Shown piece after piece: positions 9,879-41,905 of a stretch of 64,000 nt of DNA. The stretch's first letter is position 1; each line of letters begins with the position of its first letter. Position numbers and translations under genes: made by a program. The stretch is from Klebsiella aerogenes. Lineage in GTDB: Bacteria; Pseudomonadota; Gammaproteobacteria; Enterobacterales; Enterobacteriaceae. The notes beneath the pieces were generated by a model, which ran no database searches, was not told the origin of the DNA, and saw only the letters and a program-made list of their open reading frames with translations. The stretch covers positions 4,400,422-4,464,421 of the forward strand of contig CP119076.1 in assembly GCA_029027985.1 (NCBI GenBank), read 5' to 3'.

Positions 9879-9986
9879 AAACAGTCCCTCCGCGCTCGCG
9901 TGAGCGAACGCAGCGTTACCGACGGGCACGGCAAAACCTTACCTGTCAGGCATTATTTTTATATGGCAGGGACATCGTGGACGTCA

Positions 9987-10093
9987 CTGCTTTACGCTTT
10001 CCGGTAAAGCAGTGTTAAACAGGCTTACCGGAAAGAAAGGTTGCTCCATCGAGGATGAGGAGTGGGATCGGGGTCCATAAAATCTCCGGTAAG
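9987..10093 (-). promoter_or_regulatory. mgtA leader RNA with mutually exclusive stems (Mg2+ / mgtL control)
   Basis: Three related segments compete in the minus-strand RNA. The segment at 10086-10093, just before mgtL, is complementary over 8 nt to 10024-10031 at the mgtL stop codon. The same stop-codon segment (10025-10035) is complementary over 11 nt to 9997-10007. That third segment can also fold with its own flank, 9987-9995 against 10004-10012. Ribosome progress through mgtL would decide which stem forms, as in the Salmonella mgtA leader. Pairings are read from sequence; the mechanism is carried over from Salmonella. No folding energies were computed. Confidence 0.75.
10025..10078 (-). 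CDS. mgtL: mgtA leader peptide MgtL
   Basis: A 17-codon frame, MDPDPTPHPRWSNLSFR, begins at the ATG 10076-10078 after GGAG. It closely matches the proline-rich Salmonella MgtL ([17 protein letters not shown] as I recall it). Prolines at positions 3, 5, 7 and 9 would stall ribosomes when proline is low or when Mg2+ shortage weakens the ribosome, allowing transcription into mgtA. The stop codon lies within the switching stem. Confidence 0.85.
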   Translation of the reverse strand: MDPDPTPHPRWSNLSFR

Positions 10094-20245: not shown

Positions 20246-21932
20246 CATCGTTGAGAAAACACTGGCGCAACTTTATCCTGCCGCACAGATCCCCGCGCTT
20301 ATCACGCGTATTCACCAACTGTGTCAGCACTGGAAAAAGAAGACGCGAGAGCCGGCGTTGCTCGATCAAACCCGCGTCTGGATGATCGCCTACGGCGACA
20401 GCATCACGGCACCGGATAAGCACGCGCTCGCGACGTTATGCCGGTTTTCACAGAACCGGCTCGAGAATGTGATAAGCGATATCCACCTGCTGCCGATGTA
20501 CCCCTGGACGTCTGATGATGGATTCAGCGTGACGGACTACCGGAAAATTGCCCCTGAACTGGGAACATGGGACGATATTGCCGATCTGGCATGCCATTTC
20601 AACCTTATGTTTGACTTTGTCATTAACCATGTCTCGCAACAAAGCCGCTGGTTTCAAGGATACTTGCAGGGTGACCCTCGTTACGAAAACTATGTTATCA
20701 GCGCCGACCCGGACGCCGATTACCACCGGGTGACTCGTCCGAGGACGCTGCCGTTGCTAACCCCCTTCACGCGGCAATCCGGAGAGAAGGTACACATCTG
20801 GACAACGTTCAGCGCCGACCAGATCGACCTTAACTTTCGGGAACCTGAAGTACTGCTGGAAAGCATTGATATCCTGCTTCAATACGCCGCTTGCGGCGCC
20901 CGCGCCATTCGCCTCGATGCCATTGGTTTTTTGTGGAAGGAGAAAAATAGTTGCTGTATCCACCTGGCGCAAACTCATCAGATTATTAAGCTCTGGCGCG
21001 TCATACTGGAAGAGACCTTCCCGGACTGCCTGTTAATAACCGAAACGAACGTTCCTCATCAGGAAAACATCCAATATTTTGGCAACGGTGACGAAGCCCA
21101 TATGGTATATCAGTTCCCACTGCCGCCGTTGACGCTACACGCATTCCTACGTGGCGATGCGCGCTGGCTACGCCAGTGGGCGCAGTCGCTTGACCAGGAA
21201 GTTCTCCCCGAAAACACCACATTCTTCAATTTTCTCGCCAGCCATGACGGTATTGGGCTGCGCCCTGTGGAACATCTATTGGATGGGGATGAAAAAGCAT
21301 TTCTTATCAATGAAGTGGAACGAAAGCATGGGCGAGTCTCATGGAAAACAAATCCCGATGGCAGCCAGTCGCCCTATGAACTCAATATTAACTACCTGAG
21401 TGCGCTAAGCGAGCCTGGAGAAAACATAGATGCGCAGGTAGACCGATTCGTCGCCTCACAGGCCATCCTGTTTATGTTGCGCGGCGTTCCGGCAATTTAC
21501 TACCACAGTCTGTTTGGCAGTGAAAATGATCAAGTTGGGTTGGCTGAAACAGGAGTAAACCGGCGAATTAATCGTCAAAAGCTGGATTTCGCCACGTTGA
21601 ATACTGAACTTCTTAACCCGAAAAGTCTGCGGGCGAGAATCTTTTCTCGCCTGGCGACGCTGTTAACGTTGCGCAGAAAATATGCCGCATTCTCACCTCA
21701 GGCGACTCAGCGGGTACTAGACCTTCCCGACACCTTTTTCGGTCTTGTGCGCCATCATCCACAAACCCACGAAACACTGTATTGCGTGGTCAATCTTACC
21801 GGTTTTTCACAACCGTTATCGCTGCCTGCAACCGGTCTCGACCTTCTGACGGGAGAATGCTTCTCCGGCACCGGCGAACTGAATGCCTGGCAAATTCTCT
21901 GGCTAAATACCGATACCCCTCAGGAGGCATAA
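20223..21932 (+). CDS. GH13_18 (sucrose phosphorylase-type) glycoside phosphorylase, YcjM-like
   Basis: 569 aa. Clearly related to E. coli YcjM (glucosylglycerate phosphorylase): HLLPMYPWTSDDGFSVTDY, FDFVINHVS, RAIRLDAIGFLWKE (nucleophile Asp), LITETNVPH (acid Glu) and NFLASHDGIGL. Enzymes of this subfamily release alpha-glucose-1-phosphate from sucrose, glucosylglycerate or sucrose-6-phosphate. The ATG at 20223 follows AGGAG and overlaps the mannosidase by 23 bp, so translation is probably coupled. The upstream frame to 20115 lies inside the mannosidase and is rejected. The exact acceptor (glycerate, glycerol, phosphorylated sugar) is not known. Confidence 0.82.
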   Translation: MNPSARNNIVEKTLAQLYPAAQIPALITRIHQLCQHWKKKTREPALLDQTRVWMIAYGDSITAPDKHALATLCRFSQNRLENVISDIHLLPMYPWTSDDGFSVTDYRKIAPELGTWDDIADLACHFNLMFDFVINHVSQQSRWFQGYLQGDPRYENYVISADPDADYHRVTRPRTLPLLTPFTRQSGEKVHIWTTFSADQIDLNFREPEVLLESIDILLQYAACGARAIRLDAIGFLWKEKNSCCIHLAQTHQIIKLWRVILEETFPDCLLITETNVPHQENIQYFGNGDEAHMVYQFPLPPLTLHAFLRGDARWLRQWAQSLDQEVLPENTTFFNFLASHDGIGLRPVEHLLDGDEKAFLINEVERKHGRVSWKTNPDGSQSPYELNINYLSALSEPGENIDAQVDRFVASQAILFMLRGVPAIYYHSLFGSENDQVGLAETGVNRRINRQKLDFATLNTELLNPKSLRARIFSRLATLLTLRRKYAAFSPQATQRVLDLPDTFFGLVRHHPQTHETLYCVVNLTGFSQPLSLPATGLDLLTGECFSGTGELNAWQILWLNTDTPQEA

Positions 21933-21933
21933 C

Positions 21934-22506
21934 ATGGATTTGTCTACACTGACACGCCCCGAACTGATCTTTATCAATCCAGTACAGCGATCGCCGAATG
22001 CATTGATTGAGCAAATGGCGCAATCTCTGGCGCAACAAGGGATTGTTCATCATGCCGATCATTTTATCGCCAGCGTGATGCGCCGGGAAAAAGAAGGCCC
22101 GACAGCGCTGGGGGAAACGCTGGCCGTTCCTCATGGAAAATGCGACAGCGTCGGCCAGGCGGCCTTTTGCATCGCGTTGTTTCAGGATCCGATTATGTGG
22201 CCCGGCCTGGAAGGAGATGAAGAGGTCAAACTGGTGTTTCTACTCGCTATCCCTCCCGCAGAAGCCGGGAGTACACATATGCAGCTATTAACACAACTCA
22301 CTTCAATGCTGGTCGACGATAGTCTGCGCCAACAGATACTTAACGCCACTTCAGCCGATACGCTAATGGCGCTACTGTCGCAGAAAATCATTCCCAACAC
22401 GCCTGAACCCGCTGCACGACCAAAAAGCAAACCTGCAATCCCCATTCTGTTAGGCCTCATTGCAGGAGCCGCGTTTATCAGTGCCGGGCTCCACTGGACG
22501 CCATAG
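21934..22506 (+). CDS. PTS fructose-type EIIA with C-terminal membrane tail
   Basis: 190 aa. Residues about 5-150 form a PTS_EIIA_2 (fructose/mannitol) domain with the phosphohistidine His67 in LAVPHGK. After a Pro-rich linker (TPEPAARPKSKP) comes a hydrophobic segment at about 168-187 (IPILLGLIAGAAFISAGLHW), an apparent membrane anchor, unusual for a EIIA, which is normally soluble. It begins one base after the phosphorylase stop codon and should pass phosphate to the EIIBC at 16208. Confidence 0.8.
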   Translation: MDLSTLTRPELIFINPVQRSPNALIEQMAQSLAQQGIVHHADHFIASVMRREKEGPTALGETLAVPHGKCDSVGQAAFCIALFQDPIMWPGLEGDEEVKLVFLLAIPPAEAGSTHMQLLTQLTSMLVDDSLRQQILNATSADTLMALLSQKIIPNTPEPAARPKSKPAIPILLGLIAGAAFISAGLHWTP

Positions 22507-22573: not shown

Positions 22574-23926
22574 TTATGCGCGGTCGGCGTCAGGAATGGC
22601 AACGCTCGCTTCCGGCTGCGTCGAGGCATGCTCTTCTTTCGCCTTCAGGCGATCCCAGGCGCGGAAGAACGGATAATAAACCACCAGCGAAATGGTGAGA
22701 TTCACCACCTGCAGTACAGTGCCGGAAATATGCCCGCCGGTCGCCAGATAGCCGCTGATAAAAATCGGCGTGGTGAACGGCAATGCAATCCCCGCAGGCG
22801 GCGCCACCAGCCCGGTCGCCATCGCGGTATACGAAACAATCACCAGCAGTACCGGGGTCAAAATAAACGGCAGGAAGAAGTACGGGTTCATCACCAGCGG
22901 GATGCCAAATACCATGGGCTCACTGATGTTAAACAGCGCTCCCGGCGCGGCGATTTTGCCCAGTTGCTTCATCTGCTGGCTACGGCTGCGCAGTAACATA
23001 AAAATCACCAGCCCCAGCAACGCGCCGGTACCGCCGGGCGCGATCCACAGGTCGTAAAACTGTTGGGTAATAATGTGCGGGATCGGCTGGCCGTTCTGAA
23101 ACGCCGTCAGGTTCTCCGACATATTCGACAGCCACACCGGCTGGATAAACACCAGCACAATCGCATCGCCGTGCAGCCCCAGCGTCCACAGAATACCGAT
23201 CACAATGACTGAGATAATCATCCCCGGCAGCGTACCGCCGACGTGGTGCATCGGAATACCGATAAGCGTCGCAATCATGCTGTTAATGTCGCCGAACGGC
23301 GAGGCTTCTACCGCCAGACGCAGCGCCAGCACCACTGCCAGCACACAGAAGCCGGGAACCAGGGCCAGGAACGATTTCGCCACCGCTGGTGGTACGCCGT
23401 CCGGCATACGGATAACGAGGTTGCGGCTGGCGACGAAACGATAAATTTCCGTCGACAGCAGCGAAATGACGATGGCGACAAACAGCCCCTGGCTGCCGAC
23501 CATACTCACCGGGATCACCCCTTTAATGACCTCCGCCGCGCCGTGTACCGGGGTAAACAACGTGTTCTGCGGAATCGTCATCACGAAGGCCACCAGCGAC
23601 ATCGCCCCGGCGCTTAGCGGGTCGATGGTACGGTACTTCTCCGCCAATCGGTAGGCGATGCCGAAACTGGAAATCAGCGCCATGATGTCGTAGGTCGCTT
23701 TGACCGGATACAGCATTTTATCGCGCCAGACATCGCCAAACAGGCCGCTCATCATGTCGGCATAGCCGGGAATCGGCAGGTAGGCGAAAATCAGGAAAAA
23801 CGAGCCAATCAGCATAAACGGCATATTCAGAATGATGCCGTCGCGCACCGACAGGACGTGCTTTTGCCCGGCGATTTTCAGCGCCGCCGGCATGACGTAA
23901 CGTTCAATCCAGCTTGTATTCGACAT
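22574..23926 (-). CDS. PTS lactose/cellobiose-type EIIC permease
   Basis: 450 aa integral membrane protein of the CelB/ChbC family, with about ten hydrophobic segments. Family-typical stretches include RDGIILNMPFMLIGSFFLI near residue 27, a NISEPMVFGIPLVMNPYFF block near 335 and a C-terminal cytosolic tail. Last gene of a minus-strand operon with EIIB (25351) and a GH4 enzyme (23952). The expected substrate is an aryl- or oligo-beta-glucoside imported as 6-phosphate; the sugar cannot be fixed from sequence. Confidence 0.88.
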   Translation of the reverse strand: MSNTSWIERYVMPAALKIAGQKHVLSVRDGIILNMPFMLIGSFFLIFAYLPIPGYADMMSGLFGDVWRDKMLYPVKATYDIMALISSFGIAYRLAEKYRTIDPLSAGAMSLVAFVMTIPQNTLFTPVHGAAEVIKGVIPVSMVGSQGLFVAIVISLLSTEIYRFVASRNLVIRMPDGVPPAVAKSFLALVPGFCVLAVVLALRLAVEASPFGDINSMIATLIGIPMHHVGGTLPGMIISVIVIGILWTLGLHGDAIVLVFIQPVWLSNMSENLTAFQNGQPIPHIITQQFYDLWIAPGGTGALLGLVIFMLLRSRSQQMKQLGKIAAPGALFNISEPMVFGIPLVMNPYFFLPFILTPVLLVIVSYTAMATGLVAPPAGIALPFTTPIFISGYLATGGHISGTVLQVVNLTISLVVYYPFFRAWDRLKAKEEHASTQPEASVAIPDADRA

Positions 23927-23951
23927 GGTGTGCTCCCCGAGGGAAATGCGG

Positions 23952-25259
23952 TCAGTTAAATTGCGTCAGCCATTGACGGTTTATGGTTAATACTTCATCC
24001 AGCAGCGCCTGGGCATCGGTGACGTTACCGACCAGAGGATTGGTCACCAGCGCCAACAGCGCGCTATCGCGGCAGCCGTGTACTGCGGCTTCAATCGTCA
24101 GCCGCTCAAAGGCTTTCACCTGCTGGGTCAGGCCGTTCATCGCTGGCGGCAGCGCGCCGAACGCCAGCGGACGCGCGCCCTGCGCATCGATAATACTGTT
24201 GGTTTCGACGACCGCATCATCATCCAGCCCGTGGATCGCGCCGTTGTTGCGGGTATTCACCACCATCTCCGCGCCAAGATTGTTATGGATGGCGTTAATC
24301 AGCTCGACGGCCACTTCCGAGTAGTACGCGCCGCCGCGGAAGCTCAGCTGTTCTGGTTTTTCTGCCAGCTGTGGGTCGGCGTACAGCGCAAACAGTTCCT
24401 GCTCGACCTTCATCACCTGCTCGGCGCGGGTGCCTTTGCTTTTCGCCGCGGCGATCTCTTCCGCCAGCATCGCCGGCGTCAGCCAGAAATAGCGGTGATA
24501 GGGGCACGGAATCGCCTTCAGCGCACGCAAGAATTCCGCCGGCCACGGCAGCTCTTTGATGTTATTCATCGACAGCGCCTTACCGTCGCACAGCATCTCA
24601 ATCACCTTGCCGGTCACATCCTCGCGTCCCTGCATCACCTTGTGCACCCAGACCATATGGTTCAGCCCGGCAAAACGCAGTTTGACCTCAGACTCCCGCG
24701 CGCCCAGCATGCCAACGATCATATGCTGCATATTGATCGGCACGTTGCACAACCCGATGATCTTCGCCTTGCTGTAGCGGCTGACCGCTTCGGTGACGAT
24801 CCCTGCCGGGTTAGTGAAGTTGAGAATAAAAGCCTCCGGCGCCAGCTGTTCCACTTTGCGCGCCACTTCAAGGATCACCGGGATCGTGCGCAGCGCTTTA
24901 GCGAATCCGCCAACGCCGGTGGTCTCCTGGCCCAGCAGGTTGTATTTAAGCCCCAGTCGTTCGTCGGCGGCGCGCGCCGCCAGCTGTCCGACGCGCAACT
25001 GAGTCAGCACAAAGCGGGCACCGCGGATCGCCTCGTCGAGCGTAAAATGAACGCTAACCACCACCTGTTCCAGCCCTTTATGTTTCAGCATCCTCCGGGT
25101 CAGCGCGGCAATGATCTCGACCTTTTCCTTACCGGATTCCACATCCACCAGCGCCAGCTCCGTGACCGGAAGCTGTTCATAACGAACGATAATCCCTTCA
25201 ATAAGCTCCGGCGTGTAACTACTGCCGCCGCCGATAACGGCGATTTTCAGTGCTTGCAT
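23952..25259 (-). CDS. 6-phospho-beta-glucosidase, GH4 (CelF/ChbF-like)
   Basis: 435 aa. GH4 enzymes use NAD+ and a divalent metal. A Rossmann start ([19 protein letters not shown]), [13 protein letters not shown] near residue 150, the metal cysteine in [12 protein letters not shown] near 170 and a HNN motif near 290 are visible. It cleaves phosphorylated beta-glucosides in the cytosol after PTS import. The ATG at 25259 is preceded by AGAGGT; an upstream codon at 25304 is rejected. Middle gene of the operon. Confidence 0.88.
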
Positions 25260-25350
25260 AGTGACCTCTATTCGCATCTTTTCGGCATGCAGAGAACCGC
25301 GCACGATCGTCAGGACCGCGCGTGATGATGATAAAAATGGGATGAGAAAA

Positions 25351-25659
25351 TTAGTGTTCGAGCAGGGCCAGCGCTTTATCCAGCACCGCGGCGCCGCGCA
25401 TCATGCCGTAGTCGGCCATATCGATAACCGCGACCGCTTTACCCTGCGGCGCCGCCAGCGCGGTCAGGCGTCCGGCTTCGTATTTGACCTGCGGCCCCAG
25501 CAGAATCACGTCGGCGTTCGGTAGCTCGCGTTCAAATTCCGCCACTGCCACCGCATAGATCTCCAGCGACAGCGCGCGTTGCTGGGCTTCCGCTTTCATC
25601 TTATTCACCAGCATGCTGGTGGACATACCTGCGGCACAACAGAGTACGATTCGTGGCAT
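25351..25659 (-). CDS. PTS lactose/cellobiose-type EIIB
   Basis: 102 aa soluble phosphocarrier. The phosphocysteine lies in the P-loop-like start VLCCAAGMSTSMLV (second Cys, about residue 8); the remainder is the alternating alpha/beta fold of ChbB. First gene of the operon; no lactose-type EIIA gene is visible in the cluster. Confidence 0.9.
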   Translation of the reverse strand: MPRIVLCCAAGMSTSMLVNKMKAEAQQRALSLEIYAVAVAEFERELPNADVILLGPQVKYEAGRLTALAAPQGKAVAVIDMADYGMMRGAAVLDKALALLEH

Positions 25660-29772: not shown

Positions 29773-31683
29773 TCAAAACCGGCTGACGCACTCCATCGCC
29801 ACCGTTTTAAACTCATCGAAGCTGCGGGTCGCGGCGAGGCGGCTCATGGCGCGCTCACGCAGGAACGTGACGAAAATATCGTAGATGGCCATCGCCTCTT
29901 CGTACTCGCTCTTGCTGATGGCCAGCAAGAAGATGATATGCGCGGTTTCATCGCCCCAGGCGATACCCTGCGGGGCGATAACGGTATAGACCACTGTTTT
30001 TTTCGCCAGCAGGCCAAGGGCGTGCGGCAACGCAATGCCATCGCCCAGCATAGTGCTGACAATCGCTTCACGCTCGACCACCGAATCATGAAATTCTGCA
30101 TCGACAAAACCTTCTTGCTCCAGTTGCCGGCACAACTCGGCAAACAGCGTTTGCTGATCCAGCGGTGTATCGATCACCTGGAAATGAGCGGCATCGAAGT
30201 ATTTGTTCAACATCCACGGGCGGGTACGATCCACCAGCACCAGCTTGCCGATCTGATCCAGCTGATAGTCGGTCGGGAACGGCGCGATGGTCACCACCGG
30301 TTTGTCTTTTTCGCTGATGCGCACGGTCGAGATGACAAAATCCTCATCGATCGCTTCCCGTTGTTCATACTCGCGCTGTGAAAGGGTGGCGGCGATCTCC
30401 AGCTGCGGATATTTGCGTTGCAGGATCGCTTCGATCATCCGCACCATCGCATTGCTGGTGTCACATACCAGCAGCACATGCGGTTGGCGCTGATAGCCGA
30501 TGTTGTAGTGACGTTCCAGCCCAACGCCGATATGCAGCACCAGGAAGCCGATTTCGTTTTCACTGATGGTATAAGGCGTGTATTTCCCCCAACTGGAGAT
30601 CGCGGCAAGGGTCATATCCCAGGCCATCGGGTAGTGCTGCTTGATGTTATCGAGCAGCGGGTTGGGGATCATTATCTGATAGCGCACGCGGGTGATCATG
30701 GTCTTAATGTGGGTCAGCAGATCGGCGTGCAGTTGGGCGTCATCCAACAGGTTGTAGTTATACTGGCTGTTGATGTAGCGCAGGATGTAATTCACCAGCG
30801 CCTCGTCATCGTCGGCGCTGATAGTTTCCGGATCAACATCCTGCACCTGGCGAGCGGCGATATGCACGCACAGCCACTCTTCTTCGGCGGGCGATAAGGG
30901 TTTACCGGCCAGCCGCTGTAGTTCGTTTGCCAGATCGCGCGCGGCATCGCGGACGTTTTGCGCGACGTCTTCGGCGCTAAAATCCGCCAGCGGGTAGCCT
31001 TCGCTGACGCGGCGCACGACCACCGCGCCGTACAAGCAGATAAAACGCTCGCCAACGTCAGTGAGGCGAATATGGTGACGAGTGAGCGTCTCTTGCAACA
31101 CCGGCGCCAGTTGCTCAGGCACATCGGCTTCCAGCGCCTCGGCGCTGATCAGCGGATTAATTCCGCCCTGCTGGGTCAGATCCCACAGCAGATCGGTCAG
31201 GCAAGCGCGAATCGATATCTCACTGCCAAACAGCTTCATGCCGTGACGCGGGCGCGTTTCAAGGGTCAGCTGATAGCGCTGGAAACGCTCGCGCACCTCA
31301 ACCATATCGTTCTGCAATGTGGCGCGGCTGACGAACCACTCATCCGCCAGATCTTCCAGCTTGATGGAAAACGGCGAAGTCAAAAAACGCACCAGTAAAA
31401 AGTTGATACGGTCCTGGGCAGTACGCGGGACGTGCTGCGCCTTTGGCGCCGTCTCTTCCAGCGCCTGGAAGCTCGATGGGTCATCAATCTTTAGCTGATA
31501 ACCACTGCCGCGGTTGAGAATAAACTGCGCGCCATATTGCGCCAGTAGCGCATTCAGCGCGGTAATATCGGCGCGCACGGTACGGGTAGAAACCGACAGG
31601 CGTTGCGCCAGCTCATCCTGCGGCAGCGTTTCATTTCGCAGCAGAGTGAATAATTGCGCTAAGCGTTGGTTGGGAAATCGCAT
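29773..31683 (-). CDS. BglG/MtlR-type transcriptional activator with PRD, EIIB-like and EIIA domains
   Basis: 636 aa. In order: HTH (about 1-65, ELAQRLSVSTRTVRADI), a second winged helix (about 85-165), two PRD domains (about 180-390, with LCVHIAARQ and LVLHIGVGLER), an EIIB-like domain (about 403-490, VCDTSNAM with Cys) and a C-terminal EIIA-like domain (about 500-634, phospho-His in IALPHALG). This is the layout of DNA-binding activators such as MtlR and LicR, controlled by PTS phosphorylation. As last gene next to the cluster 3 operon it is the likely activator acting at the palindrome 38557-38576. A separate promoter cannot be excluded. Confidence 0.88.
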   Translation of the reverse strand: MRFPNQRLAQLFTLLRNETLPQDELAQRLSVSTRTVRADITALNALLAQYGAQFILNRGSGYQLKIDDPSSFQALEETAPKAQHVPRTAQDRINFLLVRFLTSPFSIKLEDLADEWFVSRATLQNDMVEVRERFQRYQLTLETRPRHGMKLFGSEISIRACLTDLLWDLTQQGGINPLISAEALEADVPEQLAPVLQETLTRHHIRLTDVGERFICLYGAVVVRRVSEGYPLADFSAEDVAQNVRDAARDLANELQRLAGKPLSPAEEEWLCVHIAARQVQDVDPETISADDDEALVNYILRYINSQYNYNLLDDAQLHADLLTHIKTMITRVRYQIMIPNPLLDNIKQHYPMAWDMTLAAISSWGKYTPYTISENEIGFLVLHIGVGLERHYNIGYQRQPHVLLVCDTSNAMVRMIEAILQRKYPQLEIAATLSQREYEQREAIDEDFVISTVRISEKDKPVVTIAPFPTDYQLDQIGKLVLVDRTRPWMLNKYFDAAHFQVIDTPLDQQTLFAELCRQLEQEGFVDAEFHDSVVEREAIVSTMLGDGIALPHALGLLAKKTVVYTVIAPQGIAWGDETAHIIFLLAISKSEYEEAMAIYDIFVTFLRERAMSRLAATRSFDEFKTVAMECVSRF

Positions 31684-31705
31684 GTCAGTTCCTTGTTCTT
31701 ACGGC

Positions 31706-32860
31706 TCAGGGTTGAGCGGATATCACCATCTGCGACGGGCTGCCGACCGGCGTATAGTCAGAGGCAAAGGTCAATTTGCCATCCTTCGGCGCCACGCTGA
31801 AGCGGGTAATATTATCGCTACGCTGGTTCATGACGTACAGCCACTGCCCCTGATTATCCAGCGTCAGCGTGCGGGGGTAATCCCCACGCGTCCAGATATC
31901 TTCCTGGTGGCTCAGGCTGCCGTCGGCCAGCACGGTAAAGTGAGCGATGCTGTTATGCAGGCGGTTGGCGACGTACAGCTGCTTACCGTCGTTGCTCAGG
32001 ACCAGACCAGCGGCAAAGCTGGTGCCTTTATACTCTTTCGGCAGCGCGGAGACGGTTTTGCCTTCGCGCAGCAGACCGCTTTGCTTATCAAGATGATAGA
32101 AGGTCAGCGTCGATGCTTCTTCGTTAATCAGCCACATGCCGTCGCCCTTCGGCGTAAAGACGAAGTGACGCGGGCCGGCTCCCGGCGAAGAGGCGGCGAT
32201 AAACGGCGGATCGTTCGGCGTCAGCTTGCCGCTGGCGCTATCCAGCCGGTACTGATAGATCCGATCCAATCCCAGATCGGTGGAATAAACATATTTCCCG
32301 CTGGGATCGGTGGCGATCATATGCGCATGCGGGCCATTGTGATCGCTAACCGCAAAGCTGCCCTCGACGGCCGCCGCCGGGCGTTCCGCCCCTGCCGGAC
32401 CTTCATCCTGATGCACATCGGCTGCCTCTCCCAGGCTACCATCTTCTTTCACCGGTAGCACGGCGGTACTGCCGCTAACATAGTTGGCCACCAGCAGATA
32501 TTTGCCATCCGGAGTCAGGGAGAGATAAACCGGCCCGGCGCCGCCTGAGGCGACCTGGTTGAGATCGGTCAGTTCGCCGTTCTTCTCAATGCGCCACGCC
32601 TGCACCACGCCTTTCTCGACTTCACTGGCGGCATACAGCGTTTTGCCATCGCGCGATATGGTCAGCTGCGCGACGTTCGGCAACGAACTCACCAGCGATT
32701 TATCGTGCAGGGCGCCGGTTTTGGCATCGACGGTAAAACGGTACAGACCTTCGCCATTGGGATTATAGGTGCCAATCCAGGCGTAGTGGGTTTGCGCGGC
32801 AGAGGCGCCGACGGCAAGCAGGGACAGTGAAGCGACAAGCAGGTGACGAGCGACAGGCAT
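31706..32860 (-). CDS. Secreted lactonase-family seven-bladed propeller protein
   Basis: 384 aa. Signal peptide at 1-21 (MPVARHLLVASLSLLAVGASA). The rest is a 6-phosphogluconolactonase/muconate-cycloisomerase-type (Lactonase PF10282) propeller with repeated blades such as SRDGKTLYAASE, TPDGKYLLVANYVSGS, DPSGKYVYSTDLGLDRI and SNDGKQLYVANR. E. coli Pgl is cytosolic and lacks a signal; this one should act in the periplasm. SD AAGGAG before ATG 32860. It follows the aldolase by 70 bp, so it may supply the operon with an opened aldonic acid from a sugar lactone (inference). Confidence 0.82.
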   Translation of the reverse strand: MPVARHLLVASLSLLAVGASAAQTHYAWIGTYNPNGEGLYRFTVDAKTGALHDKSLVSSLPNVAQLTISRDGKTLYAASEVEKGVVQAWRIEKNGELTDLNQVASGGAGPVYLSLTPDGKYLLVANYVSGSTAVLPVKEDGSLGEAADVHQDEGPAGAERPAAAVEGSFAVSDHNGPHAHMIATDPSGKYVYSTDLGLDRIYQYRLDSASGKLTPNDPPFIAASSPGAGPRHFVFTPKGDGMWLINEEASTLTFYHLDKQSGLLREGKTVSALPKEYKGTSFAAGLVLSNDGKQLYVANRLHNSIAHFTVLADGSLSHQEDIWTRGDYPRTLTLDNQGQWLYVMNQRSDNITRFSVAPKDGKLTFASDYTPVGSPSQMVISAQP

Positions 32861-32893
32861 AGCAACTCCTTGATGATTCAGTAGGGGGATAAT

Positions 32894-32925
32894 TCCCCTC
32901 CCCCGTTCGAGGGAGGGAGAGGGGG
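32894..32925. other. GC-rich hairpin between aldolase and lactonase genes
   Basis: CCCCTCCC and GGGAGGG/GAGGGG tracts can pair in the 70-bp gap. No T run, so probably an internal mRNA stability or partial termination element. Confidence 0.45.
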
Positions 32926-32930
32926 TAACG

Positions 32931-33671
32931 CTACTTCACTAACTGTTTGGTCATCTCCAGCAGTTGGCGAACATCAGCCGGACGGGTGTTACCGCTGGCT
33001 TTATCAATAATCGAGCTGTAAATGTGCGGGATGATTTTACTCACGCCAGCGTCCAGCGCGATTTTCAGGATCTCGCTGTAGTTTTCCAGATCGATACCGC
33101 CGGTCGGCTCCAGCCAGAAATCATGCGCGGCGCAGGCTTTGGCGACGGCTTCGAACTCAGCGCGATGCTTCAGGCCGCCCATCGGGAAGTATTTGATTGA
33201 GCTGCCGCCCATATCTTTCAACAGCGCAATGGCGGTTTCCAGCGGAACAATCCCATCCGCCGCGCCGCTGCTCAGTGGACCGGTAGAAATCTTCACCATG
33301 CCCGGCGTGCCGGTCGGTGAAACCAGCCCATTAACCACGGTTTCGTTCTGCCCCAGCAGCGCGCGGCTGGTCGCCACGCCGGTGAATACCTGGTTGACGT
33401 GCTGCGGCTGCACCTGGCGAGAAATTTCGCTCACCATTGCCGACTGATTCGGGTCGCCCGCGCCCAGCCCTACGGAGAGCGCGTTATCAATCAGCTTCGC
33501 GTATTCACGCATATCGGCCACCGCGCTGGCGACATCCGGATAGTTTTTGGAGAGCACGCCGACCAGTACGTGACCTTCCGCCGCGTCGTAGATTTCGCGG
33601 GCGTTGTCTTTGCTGCCTGCCAGTACGTTCAGGCACACGCGGTCACGGTAAAAATTAGGGGTCAGTTTCAT
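32931..33671 (-). CDS. KDGP aldolase-family protein (DgaF-like)
   Basis: 246 aa, of the family containing Salmonella DgaF (2-keto-3-deoxygluconate-6-phosphate aldolase) and the EF_0839 type. Visible blocks: YRDRVCLNVLAGSKDNA at the N-terminus, SPTGTPGMVKISTGPLSS near 120, and the glycine-rich phosphate-site region GGSSIKYFPMGGLKH near 155, whose Lys is a Schiff-base candidate. It should split a 2-keto-3-deoxy acid (phosphate) into pyruvate and a triose (phosphate). Overlaps the preceding PLP gene by ATGA (33668-33671), so translation is coupled. Confidence 0.85.
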   Translation of the reverse strand: MKLTPNFYRDRVCLNVLAGSKDNAREIYDAAEGHVLVGVLSKNYPDVASAVADMREYAKLIDNALSVGLGAGDPNQSAMVSEISRQVQPQHVNQVFTGVATSRALLGQNETVVNGLVSPTGTPGMVKISTGPLSSGAADGIVPLETAIALLKDMGGSSIKYFPMGGLKHRAEFEAVAKACAAHDFWLEPTGGIDLENYSEILKIALDAGVSKIIPHIYSSIIDKASGNTRPADVRQLLEMTKQLVK

Positions 33672-34786
33672 GCTTTTTTCTCCTTGTTCAGAACTTCAGC
33701 GATGCGGCGGGAAACCACCTCCAGCTGCTGCGCGTTCACGCTGCGGACATCGGCTTCGATAATGCCTTCATTGGCTTTATAGCCACGGAAGTAAATGGCG
33801 TATTCGCCCTGTTTCAACGCGTTGACCAGATCGCCGGTATTGACGCCGGTCACCGCCTCATCAAATTTAATTTCGGCACGAGCGATATCGCGGCCCGCGC
33901 TATCCCACACCACCCGCGCGCTCACGCCGTTGAGGGTGTTGAGCTGCTCGATAAACGGCGTCATTTTCGCCACCATCTCCTGGCCGCTCTCTTTGGTCGC
34001 CGTCAGATAATGCTCAATCGCGCAGGTCAGGCCGAGAATCCCCTCTTTACCCACTTTCATCGCGCGGCCAATACCCATCGACTGGCGTTTCACCCATTCA
34101 ACATACTGGGTTTTCCCGACAACCAGCCCACTGGTCGGCCCTTCAATCGCTTTCGCGCCGCTGTAGATCACCAGGTCGGCGCCCATACGGTAGTAGCAGT
34201 GCAGATCTTCTTCCGCCGCCGCATCGACGATCAGCGGTAAGTGATGCTGACGCGCCACTTCCGCAGCCTGCGCCACGTTGAGCATGCTTTTCTGCACGCA
34301 ATGGTGAGATTTGATATACAAAATCGCCGCAGTACGCGGGGTAATCGCCGCCGCCAGTTGATCGGCGGAGCATTCGTTGGCATAACCCGCTTCCACCAGC
34401 TTACCGCCGCCCAGCGCCACCATGGTGCCGACCGGCGCGCCGAAGTTCACGTTGTGGCCCTTCGGCAGAACAATTTCGTTGTTCTCAACCGGCGTGACGT
34501 GCAGGTTTTCCAGCAGCCAGTCGCTGTCTTTCACCAGCACCGCCGCCACTGATTGGGCAATGCCCGCCGAAGCGCAAGAGACGACGGTCGCCCCTTCTAC
34601 ATCCAGCAGTTTGGCAATGTACTCGCCGGTTTTATTCACCAGGTCTTTCATTTCAAAGTACTGGTTCATGCCCGCCATCGCGGCTTCGACCACTTCCGGA
34701 CGCGGCGTGGAAACGCCCAGCGCCGTCATACGGCCCGAAGTATTAATAACTTGTTTTAAATGATATTTTTCAAAAATTGAAGGCAT
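33668..34786 (-). CDS. PLP-dependent ammonia lyase, DgaE/SelA-like
   Basis: 372 aa fold-type I PLP enzyme. The Schiff-base lysine is predicted in VIYSGAKAIEGPTSG (about residue 213) and the PLP aspartate in PLIVDAAAEED (about 190). Its best known relative is Salmonella DgaE, D-glucosaminate-6-phosphate ammonia lyase, giving 2-keto-3-deoxygluconate-6-phosphate and ammonia. Selenocysteine synthase is related, but gene context argues for DgaE. The start overlaps the amidohydrolase gene by 17 bp. Confidence 0.87.
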   Translation of the reverse strand: MPSIFEKYHLKQVINTSGRMTALGVSTPRPEVVEAAMAGMNQYFEMKDLVNKTGEYIAKLLDVEGATVVSCASAGIAQSVAAVLVKDSDWLLENLHVTPVENNEIVLPKGHNVNFGAPVGTMVALGGGKLVEAGYANECSADQLAAAITPRTAAILYIKSHHCVQKSMLNVAQAAEVARQHHLPLIVDAAAEEDLHCYYRMGADLVIYSGAKAIEGPTSGLVVGKTQYVEWVKRQSMGIGRAMKVGKEGILGLTCAIEHYLTATKESGQEMVAKMTPFIEQLNTLNGVSARVVWDSAGRDIARAEIKFDEAVTGVNTGDLVNALKQGEYAIYFRGYKANEGIIEADVRSVNAQQLEVVSRRIAEVLNKEKKA

Positions 34787-35903
34787 TTTCCGCGCTCCCT
34801 TGTTCGGTCAGATAGCCCTTGCCCGCGCGAATCGCGGCCAACGGCACCAGAATGTTGTCAGCCTGCAGGCTCTCTTTTTCCGCATCCACCAGCAGCGTTG
34901 GCGCATGTTCGAGGCTAAATAGCGTTAAATCCGCGTCGTAGCCGACATCCAGCCGCCCTTTACGCGGCAGACGCAGCCCTTCGGCGGCGCTGACGGTCAC
35001 ACAATCAATGACCTGCGGCAGCGTCATGCCGATAGCGAGGAATTTCGACATCACCAGCGCCAGCGAGCGCACCGGGCCGTCGATACGGTTACGGCAGTAA
35101 ATATCGGAGCTGATGGTGTGCGGCAGAATGCCCATCGCAATCGCCCGGCGCGCCACCTCAAAGCTGAAGCTGGCGGTGCCGTGACCCACGTCGAGGCGCA
35201 CGCCGCGCTGCAGGGCGCGGGTGATCGAACTGCGCAGTTCGCCAGCAGGGTTGAGAATACGGTTCGGCTTGCCGTTATAGCAGTGGGTGATGATGTCGCC
35301 GCTGCTCAGTAGATCGGCGATTTCATCGAGGTTCGGCGGGTTATTGCCGATGTGTACCATCAGCGGCAGATCGCCGTTTTCCTGCTGAATCTCCTTGGCG
35401 CGTTCCAGCGGCGTAATGCCGTTTTCGCCGACCACGCTGCTGCTCATCCGCGCTTTCAGGCCGACGATAAAATCAGGATAACGTTGTACCGCCTGCTTCA
35501 CCGCATCGGCATCAATATTGGCCATATTGGCCAGCTCGTTCTGCGCAATCAGCCCGACGCGGGAGATATTAAGCAGCGCATAAACCTCCGTCGCCGCTGT
35601 GCGGGTTAGCTGATAGAAATCATCAACGTCGTCCGCGCCGGTGCTGCCGGCATCAATCACGGTAGTGACGCCGGTGGCGATGCCCACGCTATCCGGCTCA
35701 TCGTGATAAATCGGCGAATTCGGGTAGCAGTGAACGTGGGAGTCAATCCAGCCAGCGCTGACATAGTAGTTGCCGTTCAGGTCAACGGTTTTGCGGGAGG
35801 GCGCGCTAATCTCGCCCAGCGCCGCGATTTTCCCGTCCTGGATGGCGATATCAGTCAGGGTATCGTCGACGAGGCGCGCACGGCGCAGGAGTAAATCAAA
35901 CAT
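34770..35903 (-). CDS. Amidohydrolase/deacetylase-family metallohydrolase (EF_0837 type)
   Basis: 377 aa TIM-barrel amidohydrolase. Metal ligands: DSHVH near residue 56, a barrel Lys in GLKARMSSS (about 151), His residues in MVHIGNNPP (about 187) and THCYNG (about 209), and the terminal Asp near 265-275 (HTISSDIYC). Relatives in this subgroup deacetylate small N- or O-acyl acids in vitro. In this operon it would remove an acyl group before the ammonia lyase acts (inference). A 114-bp BIME-containing gap separates it from the DUF4310 gene. Confidence 0.85.
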   Translation of the reverse strand: MFDLLLRRARLVDDTLTDIAIQDGKIAALGEISAPSRKTVDLNGNYYVSAGWIDSHVHCYPNSPIYHDEPDSVGIATGVTTVIDAGSTGADDVDDFYQLTRTAATEVYALLNISRVGLIAQNELANMANIDADAVKQAVQRYPDFIVGLKARMSSSVVGENGITPLERAKEIQQENGDLPLMVHIGNNPPNLDEIADLLSSGDIITHCYNGKPNRILNPAGELRSSITRALQRGVRLDVGHGTASFSFEVARRAIAMGILPHTISSDIYCRNRIDGPVRSLALVMSKFLAIGMTLPQVIDCVTVSAAEGLRLPRKGRLDVGYDADLTLFSLEHAPTLLVDAEKESLQADNILVPLAAIRAGKGYLTEQGSAENAFNF

Positions 35904-35935
35904 AGCTATCTCCTGGTGAAAAGGGGGTCTCTGTT

Positions 35936-36015
35936 GCCGGATGGCGGCGTAAGCCCCTTATCCGGCCGACATGTCGTGCTGACCCGTCGGCCGGATAAGC
36001 GCAGCGCCATCAGGC
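35936..36015. repeat. BIME (two REP elements) inside the cluster 3 operon
   Basis: A REP at 35936-35966 (GCCGGATGGCGGCGTAAGCC then CCTTATCCGGC) and an inverted REP at 35989-36015 (GGCCGGATAAGCGCAGCGCC then ATCAGGC) form a typical pair. They split transporter-like genes from enzyme genes and could set different mRNA stabilities. Confidence 0.85.
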
Positions 36016-36017
36016 GA

Positions 36018-36662
36018 TTAGCTAATCGCAATCGGGAAGATGGAACCGAGGATCATCGCGCCGAGGATGGCGCCGCCGGTGATCGGTTTCTGCCAGATGT
36101 AGAACAGCAGCGCGCCGACCAGAGAACCAATCCCGATTGGAATCGAGGCCGTCATCGCGCTGAGGATGATCAACGGACCCAGGAAGCGGCCGGAGGCGTT
36201 ACCGGCCCCCATCATCACGTCGGCACCGTAGGTGGAATCGCTCTGGTTGATGGTGAACTTACGCGCCAGAATGATGATGTAACCGACTGCCAGCCCCAGG
36301 ATCAGGCCCGTTGCCAGCGAAGCGGCGAAGTTAGCCACCGGGAAGACAAAGCCTGCGCCGAGCAGCAGCGCCGGAACACCGAGGCCGATACCGGTCTGAA
36401 TTGCGCCGCCGATATCCAGGATCCCTACCAGCGACCCTTCAATGATACGGGCGAACAGGAAGCTCGCGCCGAATGCCGCTACCGCGCCGTAAGAACCCGT
36501 ATCAATCCCCGAACGCAGCATCGACACGAAGGCCACTTCGTTAAAGGCGCCGATACCGTACAGGTAGTACATGTGCGTCCCGGCGAAAACACCGGCGGAG
36601 AGCAGGCCAACAAAGATCGGGAACGACCAGTCGGCATACCAAAAACCTTTATTCTGTTCCAT
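36018..36662 (-). CDS. DUF4310-family membrane protein
   Basis: 214 aa, very hydrophobic, about six membrane segments, beginning MEQNKGFWYADWSFPIFVGLL. Many Gly and Ala (GVPALLLGAGFVFPVANFAAS). I recognise it as a member of the conserved EF_0829-EF_0839-type operon, with no assigned biochemical role. With the DUF4311 protein it probably forms the membrane part of a transporter; it does not resemble any PTS EIIC family I know. Confidence 0.8.
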   Translation of the reverse strand: MEQNKGFWYADWSFPIFVGLLSAGVFAGTHMYYLYGIGAFNEVAFVSMLRSGIDTGSYGAVAAFGASFLFARIIEGSLVGILDIGGAIQTGIGLGVPALLLGAGFVFPVANFAASLATGLILGLAVGYIIILARKFTINQSDSTYGADVMMGAGNASGRFLGPLIILSAMTASIPIGIGSLVGALLFYIWQKPITGGAILGAMILGSIFPIAIS

Positions 36663-36675
36663 TATCAGGCTCCCG

Positions 36676-37452
36676 TTATTTGCCGCTGAGTGAGTTGTGG
36701 ATCATGTCCAGCCAGTTCGGCACGGTCATATGGAAGGATTCAATCATCTTCATGTCGAAGCCGCGGAAGAAGCCGCTGAGGACGAACAGCGCGACGATGG
36801 CGATCATCATCACTTTGGTCACCCGGTTCCAGCCGCTCTCTTCAACGCCTTTACCAATCAGGATACCCAGTACCAGACCCGGTACGGCGTTCCCCATAAT
36901 CAGCTGTGCCGCGCCGCCGAAAATGGTCGCCCAGAAGCCTGATTTTTTACCGGCATCGATAGCCGCCAGCCAGAAGATAACCGGCATCACGGTGTTCACC
37001 AGCAGGTTTGCCGCCGGAACCAGCACTTTAACCGCGGTGACCTGCAGCGCTTCCGGAACGGAAGAGGCGGTCAGGTTAAGGAAGGCGACGACGATCATGC
37101 CGATGATGCCGCAGGCAATTGCCATTTTTCTCGGATCATGCAGCGTTTCGCCGACGTTACGATTTTTCAGCATCAACGCCGCCGCGCCCCAGTTTGGGAT
37201 AATGCGGTGGTCAACGTCCTGCGTGAAGGAACCTGCTGCAACGGAAGAAGCCCAGGCGTTAAAGAAGAAGCCAAGGCCAAAGGAGAAGTGGGAAGCCGGA
37301 TCGCCTTCACAGGAATTCAGCTCGCCCAACGTACGAAACGCCCCCATCCCCTGTGTGGTGGGTGCGTGAAACATGCGTGCCGCTCCGGCGCCCACGCCGA
37401 CGCCGACCAGGCCGCCGATGATGAGCGATTTTATTAAAATTATCAGGAACAT
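36676..37452 (-). CDS. DUF4311-family membrane protein
   Basis: 258 aa, six to eight membrane segments. It begins MFLIILIKSLIIGGLVGVGV and has conserved-looking polar loops GELNSCEGDPASHFSFGLGF and SFTQDVDHRIIPNWG (about residues 45-100) that may bind substrate. The start at 37452 is chosen over 37473, whose first codons overlap the SD. Second membrane subunit of the cluster 3 system; 13 bp upstream of DUF4310. Function unknown. Confidence 0.8.
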   Translation of the reverse strand: MFLIILIKSLIIGGLVGVGVGAGAARMFHAPTTQGMGAFRTLGELNSCEGDPASHFSFGLGFFFNAWASSVAAGSFTQDVDHRIIPNWGAAALMLKNRNVGETLHDPRKMAIACGIIGMIVVAFLNLTASSVPEALQVTAVKVLVPAANLLVNTVMPVIFWLAAIDAGKKSGFWATIFGGAAQLIMGNAVPGLVLGILIGKGVEESGWNRVTKVMMIAIVALFVLSGFFRGFDMKMIESFHMTVPNWLDMIHNSLSGK

Positions 37453-37473
37453 AATCTGACCCTTTGGTAACAA

Positions 37474-37773
37474 TCAGGTTTGCGTGACGAAATCCACTTT
37501 ATCGAGATCGATGGCGGTCACGTTGACGGTGACATCCAGCTCCACGCTGTAGGTCCGTCGTTCACGGCGTAAAAAGATGAACAGAAAAGCCTCTTTTCGT
37601 ACCGCTTCGCGCGCATGAACAACCGTCACGTCCTGTGGCTCAATACGCAGTAGGATGTGCGATGACGATTTCATCACCGCTGCTTGCACATGGTTAAGGG
37701 CATCGGCGAAGGCCCGTGATTTGCTTTCGCCTTTGCCTGCAACCCTCACCGTGGTGGTGAATTGCTCTTTCAT
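37474..37773 (-). CDS. DUF4312-family small protein
   Basis: 99 aa, soluble, beginning MKEQFTTTVRVAGKGESKSR. Predicted alternating strands with one helix (KSRAFADALNHVQAAVM) and a basic patch FLRRERRTY near residue 70. It is the EF_0831-type member of this operon. Lying between SFCGS and DUF4311 genes with only 2 and 21 bp gaps, it is probably a cytosolic partner of the membrane pair. No function known. Confidence 0.78.
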   Translation of the reverse strand: MKEQFTTTVRVAGKGESKSRAFADALNHVQAAVMKSSSHILLRIEPQDVTVVHAREAVRKEAFLFIFLRRERRTYSVELDVTVNVTAIDLDKVDFVTQT

Positions 37774-37775
37774 AC

Positions 37776-38138
37776 TTATGCGCCGTATTTCTTTTTCCAG
37801 GCTTCTACCAGGCGCTCGCCCAGCTCTTCTTTATCCATGAAGCCGAAGCCCAGCACATTGCAACCTTCGTTGATGGCGGTCACGCCCTCTTCAACAGAAC
37901 GCATGCCGTATTTTGCTTTGTAGCCGTACTTGGTCTGCGCGGTGATCGCGCCTGCGCCGCCGCTGCCGCAGAAGGAGATGCCGAAAGTGGCGTTTTCCGC
38001 TTTCATCATGTCGCCAAGTTTCATATCTGCCGCAACGCCAGGGACGACCACTGCGCGCGCGCCGGCTTTTTCTGCACCTGCCGCGACTTTTTGGCCTTTA
38101 CCCAGACGGTCGCCAATAACTACGGTGATTTGTTCCAT
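37776..38138 (-). CDS. SFCGS-family glycine-rich protein (EF_0830 type)
   Basis: 120 aa, soluble alpha/beta. The name motif ISFCGSGGAGAIT lies near residues 56-68, followed by KYGMRSVEEGVTAINEGCNV and a helical C-terminus. The middle and end look like a shortened RpiB/LacA/LacB sugar-phosphate isomerase (CGTGVGISIAAN ... NVLAFG), whose cysteine is the catalytic base; here it would be Cys59. That likeness is my reading, not an established assignment. An EIIB-like phosphocarrier role is an alternative. The start at 38138 has SD AAGGAG; the longer frame to 38204 is rejected. Confidence 0.8.
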   Translation of the reverse strand: MEQITVVIGDRLGKGQKVAAGAEKAGARAVVVPGVAADMKLGDMMKAENATFGISFCGSGGAGAITAQTKYGYKAKYGMRSVEEGVTAINEGCNVLGFGFMDKEELGERLVEAWKKKYGA

Positions 38139-38148
38139 GTTTTGCTCC

Positions 38149-38487
38149 TTACAGGTTATCTTTTGCGACTTCGAAGTGAACGGACAGCAACCAGGCCTCT
38201 TCATCGGGCAGGTTGCCGAACTGCGCGACCACTTCGCGGGCCAGCATCATTGAATCTTCTGAAATCTCTTCGAACAGGCTAGCATCCACTTCCGGTAGCG
38301 GTTCGCCGCTGATTGACCGGTGGGCCATGGCCCGCACGTGGGAAGTCAGCATTTGCTCCTGAACGTCGTTAGGGACGATGTCATGACGGCTTAGCAAGGC
38401 GAACACCTGCTGCAGCATCTTGTCAGCCAGGCGTTCGGTCTGCGCTGCCTGATCCCCTACGTCGTTTATTACCGCTCCGTTATTCAC
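38149..38487 (-). CDS. Stand-alone PRD-domain protein (EF_0829/AHA_3910 type)
   Basis: 112 aa from a GTG at 38485-38487 preceded by GGGG. It consists of a single PTS regulation domain: RLADKMLQQVFALL at the start, SHVRAMAHRS (the conserved His region, about residues 52-60) and WLLSVHFEVAKDN at the end. There is no DNA- or RNA-binding domain, so it may act as a phosphorylation sensor or an adaptor for the BglG-type regulator. First gene of the cluster 3 operon. An upstream ATG frame to 38655 runs through the candidate operator and is rejected; the start is the least certain in this operon. Confidence 0.75.
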   Translation of the reverse strand: MNNGAVINDVGDQAAQTERLADKMLQQVFALLSRHDIVPNDVQEQMLTSHVRAMAHRSISGEPLPEVDASLFEEISEDSMMLAREVVAQFGNLPDEEAWLLSVHFEVAKDNL

Positions 38488-38556
38488 TTGTGTTACCCCG
38501 CTGATGTCTCTGGCATTAAAAGTAGCGCCAGGGGTCAGGAGTTTGTAGCGAGTGCT

Positions 38557-38576
38557 TTTCCACTTCGAAGTGGAAA
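38557..38576. promoter_or_regulatory. 20-bp perfect palindrome, candidate activator site of cluster 3
   Basis: TTTCCACTTCGAAGTGGAAA is a perfect dyad centred 80 bp upstream of the first operon gene (GTG 38487). No convincing -35 lies downstream, as expected for an activated promoter; TACTTTTAAT near 38515-38525 on the minus strand could hold the -10. Rest of the gap to cybC (38577-38741) shows no other clear signal. Confidence 0.65.
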
Positions 38577-38741
38577 GAGAAACGTCCTGCGTGATCGACT
38601 CCACACATTCACCGGAAAAATGAATAAATGGACGAATTGACGTGATGAATATCACAACAATGGCAACGCATTAGCGGAAAAAGGCAGCGGAAAGACCGGA
38701 ACAAAAAAAGGGAAAATTGTGATGTGGATAGGGTTTTAGGC

Positions 38742-41226: not shown

Positions 41227-41261
41227 TTCCCGACGCTCACCGCCATCTCCCGGATGGCGGC

Positions 41262-41881
41262 GAAGTTCGAGTACAGTGCCGTAGCCCTGCTAAGCGCAGC
41301 GCAAGCAGGGAAATTCCTGGTTGTACCGCGATTTTGTCAGATGGCGCTACGCTTATCTGACCTACAGTCCGTGCGGCTGCGAGGTGAAGTTCGGGTACGG
41401 TGCCGTAGCCCTGCTAAGCGCAGCGCAAGCAGGGAAAATCCTGGTTGTACCGCGATATTGTCAGATGGCGCTACGCTTATCTGACCTATAGTCCGTGCGG
41501 TTGCGAGCTGAAGTTCGAGTGCGGTGCCGTAGCCCTGCTAAGCGCAGCGCAAGCAGGGAAATTCCTGGTTGTACCGCTATTTTGTCAGATGGCGCTACGC
41601 TTATCTGACCTACAGTCCGTGCGACTACGAGGTGAAGTTCGGGTACGGTGCCGTAGCCCTGCTAAGCGCAGCGCAAGCAGGGAAATTCCTGGTTGTACCG
41701 CGATTTTGTCAGATGGCGCTACGCTTATCTGACCTACAGTCCGTGCGGTTGCGAGGCGAAGTTCAAGTACGGCGCCGTAGCCCTGCTAAGCGCAGCGCAA
41801 GCAGGGAAAATCCTGGTTGTGCCGCTATTTTGTCAGATGGCGCTACGCTTATCTGACCTACAGTCCGTGCGGTTGCGAGGT
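41262..41881 (+). repeat. Tandem array, five units of exactly 124 bp, REP-like
   Basis: Units begin at 41262, 41386, 41510, 41634 and 41758 with GAAGTTCGRGTRCGGTGCCG-like starts. Each contains two palindromes: CCCTGCT ... AGCAGGG and GTCAGAT ... ATCTGAC, the latter a REP variant in which CCGGAT is changed to CAGAT. Units differ only by scattered substitutions, with no indels. The open frames crossing the array are products of the repeat, not genes. Confidence 0.92.
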
Positions 41882-41905
41882 GCAGATCTCCCGGGCTCGC
41901 AAACC

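Follow-up and report, generated by a model that had tools for sequence, protein, structure and literature searches.

The 64,000-nucleotide stretch of Klebsiella aerogenes DNA analysed here (GCA_029027985.1, contig CP119076.1, 4,400,422-4,464,421; hereafter the window) carries an operon of ten genes, all on the minus strand between 29773 and 38487, in which four protein families of unassigned role stand beside enzymes of the DgaE/DgaF type. The operon is real, is conserved between distant bacteria, and has been catalogued as a gene set yet is uncharacterised. An open reading frame list combined with Pfam and NCBIfam matches gives the following layout, from the upstream end.

38641-38656, minus strand: CRP-like site TGTGATATTCATCACG, agreeing with at least 8 of 10 consensus positions, a score whose chance level was not assessed
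38557-38576, no strand assigned: perfect 20-bp palindrome TTTCCACTTCGAAGTGGAAA, a probable operator with conserved TTTCC-N10-GGAAA
38149-38487, minus strand: lone PRD protein of the EF_0829/AHA_3910 family (TIGR03582), 112 amino acids from a GTG codon
37776-38138, minus strand: SFCGS glycine-rich protein (TIGR03577), with a weak RpiB/LacAB likeness and a conserved Cys
37474-37773, minus strand: DUF4312, a small protein without hydrophobic segments (TIGR03578)
36676-37452, minus strand: DUF4311 membrane protein (TIGR03580), five hydrophobic segments by simple hydropathy
36018-36662, minus strand: DUF4310 membrane protein (TIGR03579), five hydrophobic segments by simple hydropathy
35904-36017, minus strand: 114-bp gap between the membrane genes and the enzyme genes, with an inverted repeat, read directly, that we take to be REP-like
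34770-35903, minus strand: COG3964-type amidohydrolase, a predicted N-deacylase (TIGR03583; PDB 8wzy, 2ics)
33668-34786, minus strand: DgaE-like pyridoxal phosphate (PLP) ammonia lyase (TIGR01437), with putative phosphate-site arginines R303, R334 and R348
32931-33671, minus strand: DgaF-like 2-keto-3-deoxy-6-phosphogluconate (KDPG) aldolase (TIGR03581 and NF047796; PDB 3m0z)
31706-32860, minus strand: lactonase of the seven-bladed propeller family (PF10282), with an N-terminus that looks signal-peptide-like by eye
29773-31683, minus strand: activator with helix-turn-helix (HTH), Mga, PRD, EIIB-like (by eye) and EIIA domains (Pfam)
29809-30165, minus strand: phosphotransferase system (PTS) EIIA domain of the activator, fructose/mannitol type, residues 507-625, active-site His554

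Distances between successive genes, from the lone PRD gene to the activator, are 10, 2, 21, 13, 114, -17, -4, 70 and 22 bp. A sequence-only reading made earlier had described the same ten genes in the same order and tightly packed, and both points were borne out, the packing down to the 17-bp overlap of amidohydrolase and lyase genes and the 4-bp overlap of lyase and aldolase genes. It had also begun the PRD gene at 38576, which we correct: that position is the outer edge of the palindrome, and the most likely start is the GTG at 38487, as in the annotation of the Klebsiella orthologue.

The operon is the cluster that NCBIfam describes as EF_0829-EF_0839/AHA_3910-3917. All seven of its models (TIGR03577-TIGR03583) score above cut-off at the window locus, nothing essential differs between the two, and the models carry no function. 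Full-text searches of one literature collection found no paper on the function of the cluster; even so, calling the uptake system new calls for caution, the gene set itself having been catalogued before. We compared 95 long loci by tblastn (the window and our loci L032-L034, L040-L119 and L152-L162, short loci being left out), and because 91 of them keep the full order PRD-SFCGS-DUF4312-DUF4311-DUF4310-amidohydrolase-lyase-aldolase-activator, the conservation is not chance. The lactonase gene is present in 51 of the 95. The four loci without the full order are that of Enterococcus faecalis, where the activator comes first, two that run into contig ends, and one Aeromonas caviae locus in which a deletion (L161:10663-11274) has taken out the amidohydrolase and lyase, so that the beginning of DUF4310 runs into the last part of the aldolase. 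The E. faecalis cassette also has three genes inserted at L032:11548-14283, which encode an EIIC of the lactose family, a protein of 99 residues that matched no family, and a MupG-like hydrolase; this insertion hints at a muramic-acid-related substrate there. A kinase gene follows the aldolase in the same cassette.

DUF4311 was counted in 96 of 198 genomes of the window's taxonomic family, of which 94 hold whole-looking genes: one match (genome G476) is an artefact from a J-domain protein, presumably DjlA-like, and another (G396) lies in pieces with stops. Matches to DUF4311 in E. coli and weak second matches in other enterics were rejected on the same ground: in the three of five fetched loci whose open reading frames were listed, the one that matched encodes the J-domain protein, which has a glycine-rich N-terminal segment. 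Among 369 genomes sampled across the class, DUF4311 was confined to the window's own genome, and DUF4310 was found in 20 of 197 genomes of the order (one a short fragment) and in 12 of 398 of the phylum. Plasmid-collection records with the cassette, some of them chromosome-sized, come from Bartonella, Enterococcus faecalis, Aeromonas caviae and Klebsiella. Between the window, Bartonella and Enterococcus, the four DUF4310/4311/4312/SFCGS families are 48-78% identical and the two membrane proteins 67-75%. The scan of genome contigs covered the best 80 of at least 499 relatives, nearly all of them enterobacteria by title, so that locus counts lean on one family; Bacillota are sampled by a single record. 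No relatives of DUF4310 or DUF4311 were confirmed in two viral-contig scans, and a distant blastn search with the PRD-DUF4310 region matched no E. coli record. Salmonella locus tags taken to belong to the cluster include STM4446. Earlier papers touch on single genes: one tabulates STM4446 among regulated genes (PMC11000858); in another, a urine-induced promoter could belong to either of two identical candidates, EF0839 being one (PMC2912369); a third describes EF0839 as an eda-like enzyme, perhaps tied to amino sugars, with a possible contribution to fitness when cells grow in nutrient medium (PMC7701990); and the dgaEF genes are said to be duplicated in E. faecalis (PMC7396535).

The lyase bears on the stage at which the phosphate enters. 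In the Salmonella D-glucosaminate-6-phosphate lyase, PMC9529869 places the substrate phosphate near Arg301, Arg332 and Arg346 in a manually docked model, and these residues, counted along the alignment, correspond to R303, R334 and R348 of the window lyase. Chain and paper agree in their numbering of His162, His163, Arg226 and all three arginines but not in that of the PLP lysine, which is 213 in the chain and 217 in the paper. Arg226, near the carboxylate, corresponds to Lys225 in the window lyase (Lys in 84 and Arg in 10 of 94 cassette lyases, and Lys in the genome's dga lyase as well). The three arginines, Lys212 and His162 are invariant in all 94 cassette lyases extracted, a redundant set that forms 32 groups at 93% identity. 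R303, R334 and R348 are three of the five invariant arginines among 14, and the lyase domain that carries them shares only 40-42% identity when the window is compared with Bartonella or Enterococcus. The same phosphate-site and active-site residues occur in the true DgaE of this genome. Because the three arginines are invariant, the phosphate is probably on the molecule before deamination, and the cassette lyase most likely, though not certainly, sees a 6-phosphate.

The other enzymes narrow the substrate. A second, true dga operon lies elsewhere in the same genome, with a lyase that scores 711 bits against the DgaE cut-off of 600 and is preceded by EIIB-, EIIC- and EIID-like mannose-family genes; the window operon therefore probably acts on something other than D-glucosaminate. 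Its likely substrate is an N-acyl amino-sugar acid, since the operon includes an amidohydrolase, which matches PDB 8wzy over its full length and is a relative of 2ics. The signal-peptide-like N-terminus of the lactonase suggests that the enzyme is probably periplasmic and that the lactone would form outside the cytoplasm. The broader proposal of an amino-sugar-acid catabolic operon of DgaE/DgaF type, with a membrane system of unassigned role, lactone opening, deacylation, deamination and aldol cleavage, is supported. Compared with the dga operon, the cassette has a lyase 41% and an aldolase 49% identical to the genome's true dga copies, with the same active-site and phosphate-site residues, but it lacks mannose-family EII genes by Pfam and NCBIfam, has DUF4310-4312 and SFCGS in their place, and adds the amidohydrolase, the lactonase and PRD control.

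Several features point to control by the PTS, as had been proposed. The HTH, Mga, PRD and EIIA domains of the activator are matched by Pfam, the EIIA domain as PTS_EIIA_2 (residues 507-625, E = 6.7e-20). The statement that the operon encodes no EII component or kinase is therefore wrong at the domain level for EII, the activator ending in an EIIA domain, and holds for the kinase, which the window's cassette lacks. The active histidine of EIIA is present in 91 of 92 aligned activators; the Enterococcus activator is without the domain and belongs to the single cassette with a kinase gene, a pairing that is suggestive, as a single case can be. The EIIB-like stretch, seen by eye and without a Pfam match, has a Cys in 86 of 92 activators and a Ser in six loci of family f273. 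In the lone PRD protein, His50 and His104 are kept in 94 of 94 matches (95 loci, one being cut by a contig end). On two plasmids of Bartonella sp., the gene that comes after the cassette encodes a 671-residue fusion of HPr and Enzyme I (EI), in which the histidine motifs of both parts look intact; the two copies are 99.7% identical and count as one case. For one whole Bartonella plasmid, the gene table, which may be incomplete, lists no other PTS parts, and when 24 PTS queries were run against the plasmid by tblastn (E up to 0.01), only the EIIA domain of the activator and the HPr-EI gene came up.

The upstream region adds a probable operator. The palindrome TTTCCACTTCGAAGTGGAAA is the single TTTCC-N10-GGAAA match in the window (0.05 expected), and a close form of it occurs at one place in the genome. 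Of 146 loci with the DUF4312 gene, 123 had sequence reaching far enough upstream, and 119 of these show the same pattern at a distance of 775-1013 bp from DUF4312; counted by distinct upstream sequences, it is present in 109 of 113, in the form of 22 different 20-mers. It extends, with other inner bases, to Bartonella, A. caviae and the families f271 and f273. Two of the four remaining loci have a one-base variant at the same place; E. faecalis and L117 have none. As background, the remaining 1.8 Mb of the loci contain the pattern 6 times. We consider the palindrome the probable operator of the activator. The CRP-like site is located about 80 bp further upstream in the window, and a sigma-70 scan upstream of the operon gave no promoter-like site.

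We propose, with a probability of roughly 0.58, that this is an inducible operon for uptake and breakdown of an N-acyl 2-amino-2-deoxy-aldonic acid that acquires its 6-phosphate no later than the lyase step. Our first guess for the substrate is N-acetylglucosaminate or a stereoisomer. A periplasmic lactonase, in about half of cassettes, would open the lactone; an importer would consist of DUF4311 and DUF4310 in the membrane together with two soluble proteins, SFCGS and DUF4312. The acid would be phosphorylated at position 6 by the time it reaches the lyase, as the conserved phosphate site suggests, probably by way of a phosphorelay from phosphoenolpyruvate and HPr. By family, the amidohydrolase is expected to take off the acyl group, the DgaE-like lyase to remove ammonia and yield KDPG, and the aldolase to split KDPG into pyruvate and glyceraldehyde-3-phosphate. 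The activator and the lone PRD protein may sense the phosphorelay, the activator binding TTTCC-N10-GGAAA. Three observations are new evidence: the phosphate site in the lyase, the HPr-EI gene of Bartonella, and the operator.

A number of observations weigh against this proposal. Transport, substrate and phosphorylation are each deduced from sequence, and the phosphate site goes back to a manually docked model of a relative, without a free-acid member of the DgaE family as control. The arginines are not unique to dga-type enzymes, since the unassigned PDB relative 8t7j aligns an Arg at all three positions by eye. His161, the first of the histidine pair, is kept in 92 of 94 lyases and is Ala in both Bartonella copies. 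The lyase passes the wider family model TIGR01437 (610 bits) and falls short of the DgaE equivalog NF047797 (376 bits, cut-off 600). The aldolase exceeds the cut-off of the DgaF equivalog NF047796 (393.7 bits against 300), but the dga aldolase and the cassette aldolase each pass both TIGR03581 and NF047796, so this match is weak evidence on the substrate. COG3964 enzymes have reportedly been described as acetyl-mandelate esterases. To these are added the kinases, taken up below with the free-acid route.

The first alternative is that the PTS parts (the EIIA domain, the PRDs and the Bartonella HPr-EI) are regulatory only and that the phosphate is supplied by some general kinase or by a different EII, which we regard as a possible but less probable account. 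The EIIA and EIIB-like domains of MtlR/LicR-type activators are normally regulatory. SFCGS as a PTS_IIB protein, the one EIIB family with which it was compared, was not supported (hhalign P = 0.096). For DUF4310 and DUF4311, which matched no transporter family, Pfam gave no PTS family at E up to 1, and hhalign with shallow profiles found no likeness to EII-Sor, EIID-AGA or EII-GUT (best P 0.031). These comparisons do not support membership of DUF4310/4311 in the PTS permeases, though the profiles, being shallow, may miss a distant relation to the EIIC fold. Against regulation alone, a whole HPr-EI gene carried on a plasmid for the sake of one operon would seem costly.

Somewhat less probable, and in our view unlikely, is a free-acid route, in which a simple carrier imports the acid, deacylation and deamination take place on unphosphorylated compounds, and a kinase whose gene lies outside the cassette phosphorylates 2-keto-3-deoxygluconate (KDG) ahead of aldol cleavage. 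Such a route, the ong pathway, was demonstrated for N-acetylglucosaminate in a marine bacterium (PMC9537276). Like the cassette, it strips an acyl amino-sugar acid of its acyl group and of ammonia and feeds the product in as KDPG. In the same source it has features of its own: an SSS symporter, a deacetylase of D-aminoacylase type, a lyase of D-amino-acid-deaminase type, a kinase and the free-acid order. The cassette membrane proteins have no Pfam match to the SSS family. KdgK scored above cut-off in 14 of 16 cassette-bearing genomes tested, out of about a hundred found, and the Enterococcus gene after the aldolase encodes a kinase related to KDG kinases, which together with the EIIA-less activator argues for a free-acid route in that organism. 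Against the route, all 94 lyases have the phosphate-site arginines, and the other 94 long loci gave no relative of the Enterococcus kinase. The two genomes without KdgK above cut-off, both of family f271, are rated 100% complete, although they hold weaker PfkB relatives. Concerning two Aeromonas strains, PMC11653859 describes only distant or no relatives of OngB/OngC and leaves open other deacetylases and deaminases; the cassette is a candidate for that gap.

The least likely alternative, on which we place little weight, makes SFCGS an isomerase or epimerase acting on the sugar acid, a relative of RpiB/LacAB, with DUF4310-4312 alone serving import; it draws on matches to LacAB_rpiB (PF02502, E = 0.0074, 16.7 bits against a cut-off of 24.7), TIGR02133 (E = 0.0022) and NF004051 (E = 0.0051) and on an hhalign match to RpiB with the Cys loop aligned (P = 2.4e-4 over 76 columns, best of 34 profile comparisons, the RpiB profile having three sequences), but every family match is below its curated cut-off, and in the 91 full-order loci the gene lies between the PRD and membrane genes, away from the enzymes. 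SFCGS thus weakly resembles ribose-5-phosphate isomerase B; its Cys, kept in 13 of 13 aligned proteins (111 extracted), sits on the catalytic Cys loop of RpiB/LacAB, and hits to RpiB/LacAB among PDB sequences have E of 0.4 or worse. SFCGS also differs from those isomerases in that its partner genes encode membrane proteins.

An architecture comparable to the cassette is found in the E. coli yhf operon (yhfY, yhfU, yhfT, php and yhfS; L031:4936-11423), which likewise has a lone PRD protein, a small Cys protein, a polytopic membrane protein, a predicted hydrolase and PLP-type enzymes. The enzymes differ, however, and YhfT has no detectable relation to DUF4311 or DUF4310, which also show none to each other (hhalign, shallow profiles). 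The SFCGS-YhfU match, with the Cys aligned, was second best of the 34 comparisons (P = 0.0033), which is no better than our yardstick, RpiB against PTS_IIB (P = 0.0024). Among the papers listed by a literature search, nothing turned up on the function of the yhf genes. Profile searches of the PDB gave chance-level matches only for DUF4311 and DUF4310, and for DUF4312 the top rows were multi-copy RecA constructs in which no stretch was significant alone. A bolder extension of our proposal, which we hold to be speculative and improbable at present, is that DUF4311/4310 with SFCGS, DUF4312 and the lone PRD protein make up a new class of phosphorelay-driven, group-translocating permeases unrelated to every known EII family, in which a PRD His or the SFCGS Cys would carry the phosphate in place of EIIB, the activator EIIA would double as donor, and the yhf operon (PRD, YhfU, YhfT) would be a second branch.

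Other parts of the window carry features apart from the operon. A tandem array at 41259-41888, with four overlapping register copies at 124-bp spacing that are 93-95% identical, lies just past a yjgA-like gene. At 16208-22506 stand in a row genes for a PTS EIIB-containing protein, a GH38 mannosidase-like protein, a GH13 protein and a stand-alone EIIA, an arrangement like that of a mannosylglycerate PTS locus to which a GH13 enzyme has been added. They are followed at 22574-25659, on the minus strand, by genes for a lactose/cellobiose-type EIIC, a GH4 glycosidase and an EIIB, and a Magnesium riboswitch (Rfam RF01056) at 9978-10093, also on the minus strand, lies upstream of a 919-codon open reading frame.

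If the role proposed here for the operon were proven, four protein families that now have no function would gain one, together with a short list of substrates. It would mean that bacteria bearing dga can hold a second amino-sugar-acid pathway, possibly for oxidised chitin or N-acetylglucosamine, and, should uptake prove to be driven by the phosphorelay, a new kind of PTS permease. The Bartonella plasmid offers a compact natural set that may contain everything needed.

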